The translations under genes and the position numbers were made by a program. The notes beneath the pieces are model-generated. The model was not told the origin of the DNA, made no database searches, and saw only the letters and a program-made list of their open reading frames with translations. This document shows positions 3,756 to 64,000 of a DNA stretch of 64,000 nucleotides, piece after piece. The stretch lies in IMG/VR virus record IMGVR_UViG_3300025313_000008, positions 1-64,000 of that record; one strand, given 5' to 3'. The DNA is from a virus. The stretch's first letter is position 1; the number at the start of each line of letters is the position of its first letter.

Positions 3756-4141
3756 TAATGATCACTTTCCATTGTAAGTATTTGATAAACTCCCACTTTC
3801 TTCATCCACCAACTTACTGCCTGCATGAACTCAGTTTCGGATATCTCTTTATCACTATCACTTGAACGATCATTATACCATGTTTCCAGATTAACGCCAT
3901 AATATTTATCATGATAATACTTCCAATTTTCTACTAATACTTGTGAATCTCTCCAATCATCTTTCAATACACGATAAAAAGATTTCTTCTCATCATTAAA
4001 GTCATATGTTTTAAAGTATTTGCCTACCTTTCCCTGTAATGTTTTTACAACATTTTGTTCTTCCTTATCATGTTTTTCTTTCTCTCGTCTATATGTAATC
4101 TCATTAGCTTTCACTATGATTTCATCTTCTTCTGTTGTCAT
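3755..4141 (-). CDS. hypothetical charged protein, 128 aa
   Basis: A long N-terminal charged helix (about residues 1-45) precedes an aromatic-rich region (ENWKYYHDKYYGVNLETWY). There are no Cys and no TM. It overlaps its neighbours by 1-4 bases, so it belongs to the operon that includes the terminase-like fragment at 4347-4670. Confidence 0.55.
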   Translation of the reverse strand: MTTEEDEIIVKANEITYRREKEKHDKEEQNVVKTLQGKVGKYFKTYDFNDEKKSFYRVLKDDWRDSQVLVENWKYYHDKYYGVNLETWYNDRSSDSDKEISETEFMQAVSWWMKKVGVYQILTMESDH

Positions 4142-4350
4142 GATTTAAACCTCACATGATCTCCAGCGAAAAAACAAAGTATTGTTGCTAATATTCCAAA
4201 TACACTAATACAAGCACCTATAGCAAAAATAAAAGCATGAACTATACTAGCGGTTATACTATTGGTAGATACTATTGATACCCACATCAATGTTCCTATT
4301 ATTGTAATTATCCCCGTAAATTGATAATCCTTAATTGGTACTTCTATCAT
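4138..4350 (-). CDS. small membrane protein with two TM segments, 70 aa
   Basis: Two hydrophobic segments (about residues 12-30 and 38-62) have a short loop between them and a basic C-terminus (DHVRFKS). The start overlaps the upstream stop as ATGA. It could be a membrane or lysis accessory protein; there is no family match. Confidence 0.55.
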   Translation of the reverse strand: MIEVPIKDYQFTGIITIIGTLMWVSIVSTNSITASIVHAFIFAIGACISVFGILATILCFFAGDHVRFKS

Positions 4351-4670
4351 TTTTCATTATCGCCCAAATATTCTTTAAGTATTTCAAACAATTTTAATGC
4401 TTCTTCTATCTCATAAAGAGATAATCGATATAAATCCTGATGTACATATCTTTTTGCTCTCTTTAAACGTTTTTGCATATCACCTATTGGATCTTTAAAT
4501 TCATCCAACCATAATTGAGTTAATGATTTTCCTTGTACATTATGATATTCTGCGTGATCTGTTGCAACATATATTATTGAACCTTTTTTTAACTTAATTT
4601 TTCCTATTTTGGGAATAGACAACAATGAATTTCTTGATATTCTTGAATGTGATATTTTCTTCTTTACCAT
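4347..4670 (-). CDS. terminase ATPase fragment-like protein, 107 aa
   Basis: Residues about 20-60 read IGKIKLKKGSIIYVATDHAE, then VQGKSLTQLWLDEFKD. They align almost without gaps to the large terminase at 5086-6924 (VGEISLKNGSVMYMVTDHNQ, then VEGKSLDHVMLDEAQ). The copy therefore spans the strands leading into Walker B, keeping LDE. It has no Walker A and no nuclease domain. The C-terminal half is a new charged helical region. It heads a small operon with its own TATA box. It may be a regulator or decoy of packaging, or a decayed duplication kept as a micro-gene. Confidence 0.7.
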   Translation of the reverse strand: MVKKKISHSRISRNSLLSIPKIGKIKLKKGSIIYVATDHAEYHNVQGKSLTQLWLDEFKDPIGDMQKRLKRAKRYVHQDLYRLSLYEIEEALKLFEILKEYLGDNEK

Positions 4671-4693
4671 TTCATTTATTGAGTTGGATAGAT

Positions 4694-4741
4694 AATATAT
4701 ACTAATGCTTTAGTATCATAAGACCACCGATCTTTATATAC
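4694..4741 (-). promoter_or_regulatory. two TATA-type promoters upstream of the 4670 gene
   Basis: Reading the minus strand, AGTATATATTATC lies about 27 bases before the ATG at 4670, the spacing of a leaderless archaeal transcript. A second, stronger box (TAGTATATAAAGATC) lies about 35 bases further upstream. The stretch 4671-4878 holds no convincing gene. Confidence 0.5.
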
Positions 4742-4878
4742 TATTGTGGTAATTTGATACTAAAATGTTAATGGGGTATTTGTATTATGGCACCCCTACC
4801 ACAACGAGAATTCCGAAACAGCGTTTCTATTCTGCTATTTCTTCACCCAAGGTTCTTTAGTAACATACGTAATATAAA

Positions 4879-5058
4879 CTATACTTCTATGTAATCTGCT
4901 ATTTTGTTTTGTGACATTCCACACTTTACGCATCTCTTATCAATGAAATAATGTGTTTTACTTCCATGTTTTCTCTTTTCACACGGCGCTAGTTCACCAC
5001 AATATTTACATGTAATACTTGGCGGATTATCTGAACAGAATAAATGTGTGTGATCCAA
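4879..5058 (-). CDS. zinc-ribbon protein with TTG start, 59 aa
   Basis: This frame follows the large terminase gene after 27 bases and has CKYC, then C, then CVKCG, with His residues between. That fits a zinc ribbon. The only reasonable start is TTG at 5058, since an in-frame stop lies upstream. The function is unknown. Confidence 0.5.
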   Translation of the reverse strand: MDHTHLFCSDNPPSITCKYCGELAPCEKRKHGSKTHYFIDKRCVKCGMSQNKIADYIEV

Positions 5059-5085: not shown

Positions 5086-6924
5086 TTAACCATTGTTCCC
5101 CACAGATACCCACGAATACGATTGGTGAATATCTAAACATTTTTTCGCCAAAATACAACTCACTAAACTGTCGGGAGGATGTGAAAATTTTTTCGACTTT
5201 TTTTGAGTGGCGTCTGCACTTACATCTTCGTCTGGCTTTTCAGGTAAATCAACTCTGACTAACTTAGTCCAGTCATTTAGAATAAAGTCTAATTTATCTC
5301 TACTATCCGGATGATTTGGTATCATAAATCTAGGTCTTGTATAGTCTTCTACAAGCGGATTATCTGGATGTGGCACATATTCTCCTAAAAAGTCTACAAA
5401 CTCCTGTATCATTGTGCTTTTATCTAGTGTTACTTTTGGTACTTCATCACCATGTTCGTCTATCTTTCTTGTGAACTCTAATAGTGGTTTTGTTTCATCG
5501 CCTATTGTTCTTGAACCATAGAATTTATTTTCTCCTACACCCGCATATAATTTACCAGTTAATCTATTGGCACTACCGCTTTGTATTGCCTTTATTTGGT
5601 TTGCTCCGTATCCAAGGTCTCCCATACCTATATCACATTTTGCTACTTTAAACATCCAATTAATATATTCGGCTTGATCCATTTGATTTTCTCCGGGTCT
5701 GGGCTCAAGGAGTGCTAATTGCACTCTATTGTAGTTTGTTTGTACTTTATCACCTTCTTTTATTCTCCATACTATAAAGATAGCGATAACAGTTTGTGAT
5801 GGGCTTCCAGAACCAAAATCAACTCCCATACAAATAGCTACTTGTTTTCCATATGTATCCTTGATATCTCCTATTTGCTCCGGCGTTAATAACTGCAGAT
5901 AAGGATATGGGTTCATACAAATTTCTATCATTTCTCGTGTAATTGGTCTTCTTTCTGCTTTGTAAAAACCACCCATTACATGTGATGTATAAAGTGAACG
6001 ACTCATGTGTTTTCTACGCCATTCTATCGAATATTGTGGATCTACATCATAGTCATTAATTGCTGATTCTATTGTAAGTGGAATAGTTGGAAATATTGTT
6101 TGTGGTAAATAATAGCCATGCCAGTGTACTGCCCTTGGGTTTGTTACTTCCCAATGTCCGCGCAATACTTCTTTCAAGTATTCGCCTATAATGAGTCCAT
6201 GCTTTTCTCTCTTTAGGTGGTCTTTGACTAATCCAAATTGTAGTTTTTCTCTCCAATTAAGGTCATCATATATCCACTTTCGTTGATCTGTTCTACGCCA
6301 TAATTCCTCATATGGTGATCCACTTTCTCCACCAATTCCTAATACAGTTACCTTACCCATTGTTTGTGACATTGTTAATGTTACCCTATCAAAGTTTTGT
6401 ATATCTTGGTATTGGGCTTCATCTAACATTACATGATCCAATGATTTACCTTCTACATGTCCATATTGGTTGTGGTCTGTTACCATATACATTACTGATC
6501 CGTTCTTTAGTGATATTTCCCCGACGTTACCAAGCTTATGTCTTGGAAATAGCTTTAAAATTGGATTTGGTTCAAACGTACCATATTGTAATTTCTGCCT
6601 TGAATAACCCGATCTAGATACATCGTCATATGTTACATAACATGATTGAAATCCTGCAAATGCAGTCGTTTCAAATGCTAGAATATCAGTAGTGTAAGTA
6701 GATTTGAATATCTGTCTTCCTCCAATAATCATCTTATTTGGGTTATTATCCCTATAAATGTCCTCCCAGAAAGGAGCAACTAAAAATGACCGAGGTCTGC
6801 CTTCTACAAGTGGTCTTGCTTCTTCTATCCACCTTAGCGGTTCTGTAGGTAAAACGGGTAAATCACTTATTTGTTTGATCTTTTCCGCTAGGATCTTCTC
6901 TATATCATCCATATCATAAGGCAT
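5086..6924 (-). CDS. terL: large terminase subunit (DNA-packaging ATPase/nuclease)
   Basis: The 612-residue length is normal for TerL. The P-loop is the variant GGRQIFKST near residue 68, as in many phage terminases where the classic GxxGxGK is altered. Walker B is VMLDEAQ near residue 168. A motif III-like segment (VTVLGIGGESG) follows. The C-terminal RNase H-like nuclease begins with MGVDFGSGSPSQT and continues with DIGMGDLGYGANQI, supplying the metal-binding Asp residues. The enzyme translocates viral DNA into the prohead and cuts it. The stop codon overlaps nothing downstream. The upstream small subunit ends at the start codon. Confidence 0.93.
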   Translation of the reverse strand: MPYDMDDIEKILAEKIKQISDLPVLPTEPLRWIEEARPLVEGRPRSFLVAPFWEDIYRDNNPNKMIIGGRQIFKSTYTTDILAFETTAFAGFQSCYVTYDDVSRSGYSRQKLQYGTFEPNPILKLFPRHKLGNVGEISLKNGSVMYMVTDHNQYGHVEGKSLDHVMLDEAQYQDIQNFDRVTLTMSQTMGKVTVLGIGGESGSPYEELWRRTDQRKWIYDDLNWREKLQFGLVKDHLKREKHGLIIGEYLKEVLRGHWEVTNPRAVHWHGYYLPQTIFPTIPLTIESAINDYDVDPQYSIEWRRKHMSRSLYTSHVMGGFYKAERRPITREMIEICMNPYPYLQLLTPEQIGDIKDTYGKQVAICMGVDFGSGSPSQTVIAIFIVWRIKEGDKVQTNYNRVQLALLEPRPGENQMDQAEYINWMFKVAKCDIGMGDLGYGANQIKAIQSGSANRLTGKLYAGVGENKFYGSRTIGDETKPLLEFTRKIDEHGDEVPKVTLDKSTMIQEFVDFLGEYVPHPDNPLVEDYTRPRFMIPNHPDSRDKLDFILNDWTKLVRVDLPEKPDEDVSADATQKKSKKFSHPPDSLVSCILAKKCLDIHQSYSWVSVGNNG

Positions 6925-7562
6925 TATTCTTCACCTTTTTCCTCTTCTTCTTTTTCTTGTAGTTTGTTGATAATGTTCTGCAGTTCGGGTTTATCATAGG
7001 TTTTAGTAGTGTTTTCTTTAATAAATTGTTTTAGTGACCATACCGTTTCTGTCTTATTGGCTAATTGTGTGTATTCCTTGGTTGCTTGCATTAAAATTCG
7101 TTCATTATTCTGTTTAACTGAATGATAAATTGATTCATTTTGTAGCCTTAATCTCATTACATCGGCTTCGGTTGGATCATTTTCTCCTTCTGTTGATATT
7201 GCATTAATTTCTACATTTCTAGCATTATAATTAGATTCGGCTATTGCAATCTCTTCACTACATCTTGTTCCAATTTTTTTAAATTCTTGTAATGCTTCAT
7301 GATGATCTACTATAAATTCGCCTGTTAATACCCTATTTTCAATGAAATCTCTACCCTCTTCGCGTATTCGCTGTATATCCCTTCCTATTGTTGCTTCAGA
7401 TATATTTAGATATTCATAGTTGTTATCCTTTAACCACTTTGATATAGATACCGCTTTCTTATATCCAGCATCTTGTAATTGCTTTACTAATGAAATACGC
7501 CTATTGATTTTTTCTTCATCTGTGAGGTTATTTCCATCATTGCCCGTGCCTGTTTCCATCAT
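6924..7562 (-). CDS. small terminase subunit-like protein
   Basis: The 212-residue protein sits directly upstream of TerL, with stop and start touching. The N-terminal part has a DNA-binding helix-turn-helix pattern (ISKWLKDNNYEYLNISEATI, then RDIQRIREEG). The middle and C-terminal parts are long charged helices suited to ring oligomerisation. Such proteins recognise the packaging site. Assignment rests on position and architecture, not on family sequence. The 770-base gap upstream would be a natural place for pac. Confidence 0.72.
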   Translation of the reverse strand: MMETGTGNDGNNLTDEEKINRRISLVKQLQDAGYKKAVSISKWLKDNNYEYLNISEATIGRDIQRIREEGRDFIENRVLTGEFIVDHHEALQEFKKIGTRCSEEIAIAESNYNARNVEINAISTEGENDPTEADVMRLRLQNESIYHSVKQNNERILMQATKEYTQLANKTETVWSLKQFIKENTTKTYDKPELQNIINKLQEKEEEEKGEE

Positions 7563-39238: not shown

Positions 39239-39308
39239 ATCCAGAGCACTTCAAACAATGAAGCACTTCGTCTTTCCACTCTGTATTACACTGTGGGCAT
39301 CTTTTCAT
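39213..39308 (-). CDS. zinc-ribbon micro-protein, 31 aa
   Basis: The frame encodes CPQC and CLKC 14 residues apart, a minimal ribbon, between NAMPT and the phosphoesterase and overlapping both by about 25 bases. The overlap makes this less certain than most micro-genes here. Confidence 0.4.
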   Translation of the reverse strand: MKRCPQCNTEWKDEVLHCLKCSGYVEVHKID

Positions 39309-40668
39309 GTAAATATTTCCCCTCAAAATTCTTTATATTTGCTTTTACTAGTTCTGATAATATTATTTTTTCTTGTGATGTATTTTGTTCAAGTGCTAAT
39401 TCTCTAATATCACTCCATTTTTGTCTTAATAATTTAGGACGCGTTGAATGCTCATCCATTTCATAAACTGTTTGATAAAGTCCTTTACTAGAATAATCTA
39501 CAACTAAATTACCATTCTCTTTTATAATATTAACACAGCCGGGAATTGATCTCTTAAACGGATTTGATATTGTTAGCTTCATTCTGTCTTTTCCGTTTGA
39601 ATATGCAGTTTTCATGGCATGACCTAGATAATCTCTATCTAAATCATTATAATAACCAGCTCCTATTCCATAACTCATAAATTCAAGTGGTATTCCTTTT
39701 TCCTTTAATATCTTATCATATTCTTTTACCTTTTCAAATGACATTCCTTCTCCTATTATCATTGATACATTTTTGAACTCCCAAAACTTCACTAATCCAT
39801 AAATCTGTATAGTTTGGCTTAATACATCACCTGAATCAGGTCTTAATACAACATGGACTCCTTGTTTTTCTGCGTGTTCTAATACATCTCGCATCATTTC
39901 ATGAATGAAACGACTTGGATCATATGTATCAATTACAAGTGCCACTATATTGTGACCTTTTTCTTTTACTTGATCAATAGCATGAATAAATCCTTGTTTT
40001 TCACTATCAAACTGTTGTATAGTTTTATGTGCTGTTGCTGGAATGCTTCCTAATTTTGCCGTAGGACAATGATATTGACCATGAAAATCATCTGTTCCTG
40101 TTAAGAACATATTCCATGCTGTAGTAGCCCAATATGCGTCTTCCAATGAACGATGCCCTCTAAATCCAAAGCTATGAAATCTATGTAATGGCAATTTATT
40201 TTCTACCAAATAATTCTTCATTTCAAGTGCTCTCGTTGCACATGCACTAGGAAAATATGAATGTAAAAATATTCCTTCCCACCATGTTACTAGTTCACCA
40301 AAACCTTCATCTGTATTGGTTATTTGAGCGAATGGCGTTCCTTGTGGAACCCATGTACCATCTGGAACTGCTTCTACTTGAAGTGGTATCCAACCATGAA
40401 GTTTATCTATAACATTCATCCACATATCAACAGGGAACTTCATACCCATTTTTCTAGCACATTCGTCTGCTTCCATAACCATCGACTCTTGAATCTTTTG
40501 ATTTAACAGATTTATAACAATTTCGTTAAATCCATATAGTATCATTGGTCTTGATCTGTTGTAAATATGTGATATTTCATAATCTTGATTTTCTTTGAGA
40601 TACCAGTGACTAAGATTATAACAGTCAGTTAATACCAATGGATTAAAACGTATATCATTAATAGTCAT
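39286..40668 (-). CDS. nadV: nicotinamide phosphoribosyltransferase (NAMPT/NadV)
   Basis: The enzyme joins nicotinamide and PRPP to form NMN. Recognisable family blocks are FHSFGFRGHRSLEDAYWATT, VVLRPDSGDVLSQTIQ, SYGIGAGYYNDLDRDYLGHA and KLTISNPFKRSIPG. The 460-residue length matches NadV. Phage NadV genes support NAD salvage during infection and can rescue NAD emptied by host defences, as known for bacterial phages. Here the likely next step is by the host NMN adenylyltransferase, since none is seen. The start overlaps the upstream 84-aa gene. Confidence 0.92.
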   Translation of the reverse strand: MTINDIRFNPLVLTDCYNLSHWYLKENQDYEISHIYNRSRPMILYGFNEIVINLLNQKIQESMVMEADECARKMGMKFPVDMWMNVIDKLHGWIPLQVEAVPDGTWVPQGTPFAQITNTDEGFGELVTWWEGIFLHSYFPSACATRALEMKNYLVENKLPLHRFHSFGFRGHRSLEDAYWATTAWNMFLTGTDDFHGQYHCPTAKLGSIPATAHKTIQQFDSEKQGFIHAIDQVKEKGHNIVALVIDTYDPSRFIHEMMRDVLEHAEKQGVHVVLRPDSGDVLSQTIQIYGLVKFWEFKNVSMIIGEGMSFEKVKEYDKILKEKGIPLEFMSYGIGAGYYNDLDRDYLGHAMKTAYSNGKDRMKLTISNPFKRSIPGCVNIIKENGNLVVDYSSKGLYQTVYEMDEHSTRPKLLRQKWSDIRELALEQNTSQEKIILSELVKANIKNFEGKYLHEKMPTV

Positions 40669-62178: not shown

Positions 62179-62383
62179 TTTGAGCACCATAAATATACAC
62201 TTTTTCGCCTTTCAAACTCTTTGCAAATTCTCTAGCTTCTTCCGCAGTATTAGTGTGTTTTACAACGGTTACTCTATTTCCTATATCTGAATATTCATCA
62301 TATGTACAAACATTGAATCCTTTCTTTGGTGTTGTTCTTAATTGTTCCTTGATAACTAATTCTATGTAACTTTCATCTGTCAT
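62171..62383 (-). CDS. hypothetical protein, 70 aa
   Basis: The ATGA at 62383 overlaps the stop of the RelA/SpoT-domain gene, so the two are probably translationally coupled. The product MTDESYIELVIKEQLRTT, with strands GNRVTVVKHTN and GEKVYIYG, is a small alpha/beta protein. Direct coupling to a putative alarmone synthetase makes a partner or immunity role worth testing. No family is recognised. Confidence 0.5.
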   Translation of the reverse strand: MTDESYIELVIKEQLRTTPKKGFNVCTYDEYSDIGNRVTVVKHTNTAEEAREFAKSLKGEKVYIYGAQNG

Positions 62384-64000
62384 TGTAAGCACCCTATTAT
62401 AACCAATTCTGGTGGACATTCTGGCGGATTTGCTTTTTTACCACTATCCAAATCATAGAAATAATCCGACATCTTATAAGAATAATCTGTTATAATGTTC
62501 ATATTTTCTTTTAAATATTCCTTCATTTCATTATCAAATGGTTTATAAAATTCATGAGCCCAATCTGCCCATTTTTGCTGATTTGGCGTTCTTACCTGAA
62601 CTTCAGAAACTAATCCTTGTTTATCAATAATTGATAAGTGAACGCTTCTATATCCTCCTTTTGAGTTTTCTAAATATTTTTCTTCATTTACAATATTATA
62701 ATTTTCTTTCATATGATTGACTGTTTTATTTACATCATTTAGATTTTCTAATACTAGTCTAACTGCTGATATATCATTTAAATCAGATACATCTTTATAC
62801 AAATTAGGTCTTCTTGCTAATTTTTCTATCATACTGTAAGTTGTTTTCACTCTTCCTGTTACATCTGCATTAGGAAATTCTTGTTTCAAACTGTCAATAA
62901 CCTCTTTGACTCTTTTTTGATGTTTATCTTGTAGTTTTTCTGATTTGATCGCTTGTTTGGTTGCTGTTTCATGATCAAATTTATCTGGAAATGTGTTCGT
63001 AATATCCCTAATTGCATCTGTTCTTTCAATTTGTCTTGAATCATCTATCTTCACCTTTGTTGGTTTTCCCTTTTTTTCTTCTGGCTTCCTTCCTCTTCCC
63101 CTTGTATCCCATCCTTTCTTCGCTCCTTCTGGCGTTCCTGTTTCCTTCGACTGATCTTTTTTTTTTCTCATATCTTTGAATCTTGGTGCTCCTATTACTT
63201 TTTTTGCTGGATTTACAAATACTTGTTCGGACTGAACCCTCATTCCATCAGAAGTCAAAGCCTCAGATACTTTTTTATCTTCGTCTTCCCCTAATACTGG
63301 TTCCCAACCTTCTTCTTTTGGTTCTTCTGGATTAAACAGTTTTTCTACCCTTCCTTGTGGTTCATCAGGTGTAGTATTGTCGAAAACATTGGTATTATCT
63401 TGATTTTGTTTGTCTAATTCAGCATTAAATTGATCTTCTGATACCATTGGTGGTTGATTTATAGGCTCATTTTGATGTCGCTGTCCTTCCAATTCTGCCT
63501 CATATTCCTCCTTAGTTACAATCTCATTTTCCAATTCAACGTTTGGTTGAGTTTCATCTGAATCTGGAGTTTGATCAAATCTTAAATCTGGAACTTCATT
63601 ACCTTGTTCATCAGTTAAGTCTGTATAATTTACTCCTGTTTCTGGATCTACATGTAATTGGTCTGGATCTATCTCATTTGGATCTACTCCTTGATCAATA
63701 TTTTGTCCTTGTGATGGGTCTGCATTTGGCACTGGTATATCTTTCTGTGTTGGTTGAACTTGCTGTACGTCTTCTGGCTTTACGATCATTCCATCATCAT
63801 GAGGAACAGTTCCTATTGGATCTTCTCTAGTTGGATTTTGTAAGCTATTAGTTTCATCAGGTCTTACATTTAATCCACTTTGATCTATTGGTGGATCGCC
63901 CGGCGTTGGTAATGTAGAATAATCATCATTTCCTGTTAATTCAGCTTGTTTTAATCTATATTGATCAGATTGTCCTATTGCTGGTTCAACAGCATTTCCA
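62380..64000 (-). CDS. virion-region protein with C-terminal RelA/SpoT synthetase domain (5' truncated)
   Basis: The frame is open to the right edge, so the N-terminus is missing; 539 residues are visible. The first 300 are Gln/Pro/Asp/Glu-rich and disordered, with a phage-type motif TPEGAKKGWDTRGRGRKPEE near 290. The C-terminal 230 residues match the RelA/SpoT nucleotidyltransferase fold: GRVKTTYSMIEKL (R-x-K...S...K), SDLNDISAVRLVLENL (D...R), GGYRSVHLSI, SEVQVRTPNQQKWADWAHE. All catalytic positions appear kept and there is no HD hydrolase domain. It could make (p)ppGpp-type alarmones or pyrophosphorylate tRNA, as toxic SAS enzymes do. Gene order suggests a portal or MuF-like minor head protein. 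Confidence 0.78.
   Translation of the reverse strand, partial: GNAVEPAIGQSDQYRLKQAELTGNDDYSTLPTPGDPPIDQSGLNVRPDETNSLQNPTREDPIGTVPHDDGMIVKPEDVQQVQPTQKDIPVPNADPSQGQNIDQGVDPNEIDPDQLHVDPETGVNYTDLTDEQGNEVPDLRFDQTPDSDETQPNVELENEIVTKEEYEAELEGQRHQNEPINQPPMVSEDQFNAELDKQNQDNTNVFDNTTPDEPQGRVEKLFNPEEPKEEGWEPVLGEDEDKKVSEALTSDGMRVQSEQVFVNPAKKVIGAPRFKDMRKKKDQSKETGTPEGAKKGWDTRGRGRKPEEKKGKPTKVKIDDSRQIERTDAIRDITNTFPDKFDHETATKQAIKSEKLQDKHQKRVKEVIDSLKQEFPNADVTGRVKTTYSMIEKLARRPNLYKDVSDLNDISAVRLVLENLNDVNKTVNHMKENYNIVNEEKYLENSKGGYRSVHLSIIDKQGLVSEVQVRTPNQQKWADWAHEFYKPFDNEMKEYLKENMNIITDYSYKMSDYFYDLDSGKKANPPECPPELVIIGCLQ

Follow-up and report, generated by a model that had tools for sequence, protein, structure and literature searches.

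A short gene near terL that repeats the Walker B segment of the large terminase subunit

Why would a virus that encodes a complete packaging ATPase also carry, a few hundred bases away, a small gene that repeats only a part of it? The question is raised by a micro-gene at positions 4347-4670 (minus strand; ATG at 4670, stop ending at 4347; 107 aa) of the window, the 64,000 nucleotides of DNA analysed here, which are bases 1-64000 of a 98,399-base IMG/VR virus record. The gene for the large terminase subunit, TerL (612 aa), lies on the same strand at 5086-6924. It is identified by a match to PHROG 675 (5e-26) and by an AlphaFold model (pLDDT 82) with PDB fold matches to Sf6 gp2, T4 gp17, D6E and P74-26 TerL, as well as to the terminase in the Avs3 complex (8dgc). 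Directly upstream of terL, with a 1-nt overlap, 6924-7562 (minus strand) encodes a putative TerS of 212 aa, so named from its position, with a weak HTH match.

A preliminary description of this DNA, made by reading the sequence, had proposed that the 107-residue protein repeats a segment of TerL up to its Walker B motif. This is borne out: BLASTP aligns the two proteins with E = 2e-11 and 38% identity over 61 aa (TerL residues 109-169), and the Smith-Waterman score of 112 stands far above those of 2000 shuffles (mean 32, sd 4.4, maximum 53; z = 18). Chance similarity, the outcome that would have undone the proposal, is thereby ruled out. The core of the alignment is ungapped, with 19 of 36 residues identical between micro-protein residues 22-57 and TerL 134-169, and the Walker B HMM profile matches the micro-protein at 4e-12. 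When the minus-strand ORFs of the window were compared down to a length of 45 aa, micro-gene and terL emerged as the sole paralogous pair, and a search of the whole 98-kb record matched these two genes only. True paralogy to TerL is thus supported by comparison of the sequences.

What has been kept, and what lost? Residues 3-57 of the micro-protein are homologous to TerL 109-169 (encoded at 6418-6600, minus strand), a segment that runs through the connector between alpha2 and beta3 and takes in the Walker B strand. On the TerL model, the matching region includes what comes after a helix at 101-117, two strands (136-139 and 144-149) and, at 164-167, the Walker B strand; residues 118-167 fall between alpha2 and the end of that strand. 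Set against 24 related TerLs, the micro-protein has kept twelve conserved positions (G23, L27, S31, Y34, T37, D38, Y42, G47, K48, S49, D56 and E57), so that the pattern G..L...S..Y..TD...Y....GKS and the DE found throughout these TerLs are retained, while two invariant residues are altered (N29K and E46Q). Walker B survives with its catalytic glutamate, LWLDE being aligned to VMLDE of TerL, and the AQYQD motif that follows DE is gone. Walker A has no counterpart, since the alignment begins downstream of the GGRQIFKST of TerL (residues 68-76), and the C-terminal RNase H-like nuclease is missing, the protein ending at 107 aa with a tail that matches no TerL region. The alignment thus agrees with the earlier view of a fragment that has Walker B and neither Walker A nor nuclease. 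From the established requirements of such ATPases, ATP hydrolysis by the micro-protein would not be expected.

The remainder, residues 58-107, is predicted to be rich in helices, and these last 50 residues have no relative in the window, in the related loci or in Pfam. A stand-alone structure prediction of the micro-protein is of low confidence (pLDDT 46.5). The candidate domain DUF5886 (Pfam PF19233) was rejected: it scored 20.1 bits against a curated cut-off of 36.5, and the match faded to E = 0.068 when the N-terminal half was used alone. Sequence matches in the PDB were likewise set aside as below cut-off or at chance level.

How is the micro-gene placed with respect to terL? The preliminary description had it next to terL in the same operon direction. 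The minus strand is indeed shared, but the micro-gene does not belong directly to the terL transcription unit: about 415 bp lie between the two genes, with a 59-aa cysteine-rich ORF (4879-5058, minus strand; missing from the sister virus described below) and a promoter-like region. The micro-gene instead heads a minus-strand chain of small overlapping genes. An ATGA overlap joins its stop to the start of the gene behind it, and overlaps of this sort recur further along the chain. The gene that comes next (4138-4350, minus strand) encodes a 70-aa hydrophobic protein, probably with two transmembrane helices, and its size and hydropathy allow a guess that it is holin-like.

The TATA box attributed to the micro-gene was also found. 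The TATA-like element TATATAAAG lies upstream of it, at the centre of an imperfect inverted repeat (4709-4764, no strand assigned) that has the symmetric, operator-like form TTTAGTATCA-N5-CCAC ... GTGG-N5-TGATACTAAA around this element. Each half-site is exact in the window, and nothing else in its 64 kb comes within two mismatches of the site; across the 98-kb record the paired 10-mers, and with them the full repeat, are found a single time. When the window was taken as 1162 overlapping stretches of 110 bp, 4 of them held a perfect 10-bp inverted repeat of this type. The sister virus has one half-site with one mismatch. A regulated archaeal promoter would be the natural reading of 4709-4764.

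When did the duplication take place? Across the 36 codons of the ungapped core, the first, second and third codon positions of the micro-gene and its own terL are identical in 22, 30 and 20 cases, respectively. Since only 20 of 36 third positions agree, the duplication is old and not recent, which settles the alternative of a recent or ancient origin that the preliminary description had left to pairwise comparison. The micro-protein is no closer to its own TerL than to related TerLs. In a tree of 36 columns, which does not resolve the order within the group, it falls with TerLs from its own clade of viruses (support 90/94, which is not strong), and a grouping with its own TerL pair only gives an AU p of 0.11 on the same number of columns.

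The micro-gene is present in four assemblies that represent only two virus lineages: the window and three further IMG/VR contigs, which rules out an assembly artefact. Contig 3300025155_000003 matches the window at 99.95% identity, while the other two (3300025167_000008 and 3300025174_000013) form a sister lineage with a TerL that is 75% identical. The copies of the two lineages are identical at 323 of 324 nucleotides, the single difference being synonymous, and none of 29 four-fold sites in the micro-gene has changed, as against 63 of 151 in TerL. This might be taken for strong conservation, but the identity is not confined to the gene. It covers a near-identical stretch at 4307-4764 (minus strand; about 3 differences in ~457 bp) whose edges lie at the border of the promoter repeat (~4764) and inside the next gene (~4307), whereas the genes around it are just 74-90% identical to those of the sister virus. 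Since the copies are near-identical while the TerLs flanking them are 75% identical, a cassette of ~450 bp must have been exchanged recently. The identity of 323 of 324 therefore says nothing about selection, and conservation as proof of function was dropped. A second patch, at about 1790-2190 of the window, is also near-identical to the sister virus (97-100% per 100 bp), and the two patches together mark mosaic exchange between the two lineages.

Beyond these two lineages, no short form was found. A profile search covered all ORFs of 27 viral and 8 genome loci, whole records, 250 Nitrosopumilaceae genomes and 9 further viral contigs, and all other TerL matches, in 33 further viral contigs and 13 of the 250 genomes, were long TerL frames. 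These measured at least 461 aa, with some truncated at the ends of contigs, apart from a single frame of 383 aa in a host genome. No wider family of short forms turned up in phage records, in plasmids or, with the short protein as the query, in genome contigs. The nearest viruses that lack the micro-gene (L026-L030; TerL ~52% identical) have different genes beside terL, so that synteny cannot separate loss from gain. The search of relatives that the preliminary description had proposed thus gave a mixed answer, the gene being kept in the sister virus by way of a recently exchanged cassette and absent from the next relatives, where its neighbours differ as well.

As to the host, Nitrosopumilales genomes encode relatives of this TerL at 45-52% identity, and the TerL family shared with that order indicates a virus of ammonia-oxidising archaea. 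The virus carries MCM and Rad51/RadA-type genes. Elsewhere in the window, a 469-aa protein with a RelA/SpoT domain (Pfam PF04607, E = 7e-19) is encoded at 62380-63789 (minus strand), near large, probably structural genes, and a 460-aa ORF at 39286-40668 (minus strand) was recognised by eye as resembling nicotinamide phosphoribosyltransferase. Several Nitrosopumilales contigs (L015-L022) hold intact TerS-TerL pairs whose neighbours are ordinary chromosomal genes or toxin-antitoxin genes; head or tail genes were not evident in the flanking sequence covered. These lone pairs may be satellites or relics; a lone pair of this type in NitKor-E1 has been called enigmatic (PMC6563490).

Is the micro-gene a functional gene at all? 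Its frame is intact over 107 codons despite far-diverged third codon positions, and second positions have been better kept than third. In a simulation of neutral decay by point mutation, with indels ignored, the frame stayed open in 0.15-0.5% of runs at 0.3-0.4 substitutions per site (about 0.5% at 0.3). The open frame, the ATGA overlap and the promoter-like region with its TATA element in a unique symmetric repeat together argue that the micro-gene is probably functional.

What, then, might it do? The preliminary description had offered binding or poisoning of terminase, regulation of packaging or a decoy role, each of which stays a proposal. The reading that we tentatively favour, and put at somewhat short of an even chance, is that the micro-gene is an accessory ("moron"-like) gene that arose from an old partial duplication of terL, took over a TerL segment adjoining the subunit interface of the ATPase and acts on a terminase, with the target left unspecified. 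In favour of an action on terminase are the homology to TerL, the occurrence of only long frames elsewhere, the placement of the micro-protein in the TerL tree with its own clade, the kept frame, the ATGA overlaps and the promoter repeat. Counted against it are the restriction to two lineages together with the recent exchange, the low-confidence structure prediction, the two altered invariant residues, the loss of AQYQD and a similarity to its own TerL that is no higher than to related TerLs. The putative separate promoter suggests that the micro-protein would be made at another time than TerL, as is the case with morons.

A more specific form of the favoured reading is possible, if doubtful: that the virus has made a piece of its own packaging ATPase over into a free-standing protein, under separate regulation, which inhibits or regulates terminase motors by mimicking a subunit interface. 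On the favoured reading, the micro-protein would be a partial mimic of a TerL subunit, unable to hydrolyse ATP, that docks on TerL or a partner of TerL and thereby blocks or tunes assembly or firing of the packaging motor. In P74-26 TerL, a trans-acting arginine, R139, lies between alpha2 and beta3, and in Sf6 a lysine at a comparable place might serve as the trans-acting residue (PMC5727402). The stretch retained in the micro-protein spans the R139 interval, a match at the level of the interval and not of the residue, and the invariant GKS loop of the TerL family lies in the interval from alpha2 to Walker B and has been kept. The fragment could thus sit at the active site of a neighbouring subunit, occupying it without supplying one of its own; docked where TerL subunits touch, it could spoil the assembly of the ring or its firing. 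Possible targets would be the virus's own TerL, the TerL of a co-infecting virus or the terminase of a satellite; an external target is conceivable since lone TerS-TerL pairs exist in Nitrosopumilales contigs.

On the other hand, TerL might have provided no more than raw material. The micro-gene could have been exapted to a role outside the terminase, as a small DNA- or protein-binding factor that, for example, regulates the operator of its own operon. Richness in lysine, the half or so of the protein that is unrelated to TerL, a position as first gene behind the unique symmetric repeat and the loss of AQYQD and of E46, invariant in TerL, would all fit such a role. However, domain searches of the micro-protein found no HTH or other DNA-binding family, and the twelve positions that every aligned TerL conserves are retained, among them the DE of Walker B. 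We regard exaptation as unlikely, if not markedly so.

It is rather improbable that the micro-gene is simply a relic, left when a second terL or a tandem duplication of terL was mostly deleted, and open by luck while doing nothing. That only a fragment is left, narrowly distributed, partly stripped of conserved TerL residues and with no confident fold, is what a relic would look like, but the rarity with which so diverged a frame stays open in the decay simulation, the ATGA overlap with the next gene and the symmetric promoter repeat all speak against it. Finally, a variant of the favoured reading in which the protein poisons the lone Nitrosopumilales TerS-TerL pairs, or occupies an Avs3-type sensor of TerL without activating it, is quite unlikely: the existence of such pairs in several contigs, the NitKor-E1 precedent (PMC6563490) and the match of the TerL model to the terminase of the Avs3 complex are in its favour, but the micro-protein is no closer to host-encoded TerLs than to viral ones, and so small a fragment may escape Avs recognition.

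The stakes differ accordingly. Should the micro-protein bind a terminase, nature would have made an inhibitor or regulator of a packaging motor out of the motor itself, which would offer a tool with which to dissect subunit coordination and an example of virus-virus or virus-satellite competition in ammonia-oxidising archaea, of which little is known experimentally. If it is a relic only, it would be a minor curiosity of terL evolution.

How does the micro-gene compare with known systems? In accord with the preliminary description, a limited literature search found no description of a free-standing partial paralogue of the TerL ATPase. A related idea is seen in T4, where internal starts give rise to shortened gp17 products, but these have no gene of their own. 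The interference proteins of SaPIs are encoded by satellites and act on the small subunit or the capsid; to our knowledge, none is a fragment of TerL. They are likened to the micro-protein by description and not by sequence, being small proteins directed at a competitor's machinery for packaging or assembly (PMC5052747). NitKor-E1 (PMC6563490) shares the host order and has terminase genes outside a full virus context, but it carries full-length TerL and TerS, unlike the Walker B fragment of the micro-gene. Within the TerL family itself (PHROG 675; T4 gp17, Sf6 gp2 and P74-26), the micro-protein derives its residues 3-57 from the ATPase segment through the DE of Walker B; it differs in having no Walker A, post-Walker B motif or nuclease, and in having an unrelated tail and a separate promoter-like region. 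Similar in design, again by description and not by sequence, is Tab of Pseudomonas phage JBD26, a moron whose 83-aa product blocks tail assembly of invading phages by targeting the tape measure protein (PMC10884400). Tab has a promoter of its own and, unlike the micro-gene, sits between terS and terL on the opposite strand; it resembles no protein of known function. The two share a small product and a site at the terminase genes, and perhaps also a promoter of their own, and Tab thus sets a precedent for interference by a gene so placed and so designed.
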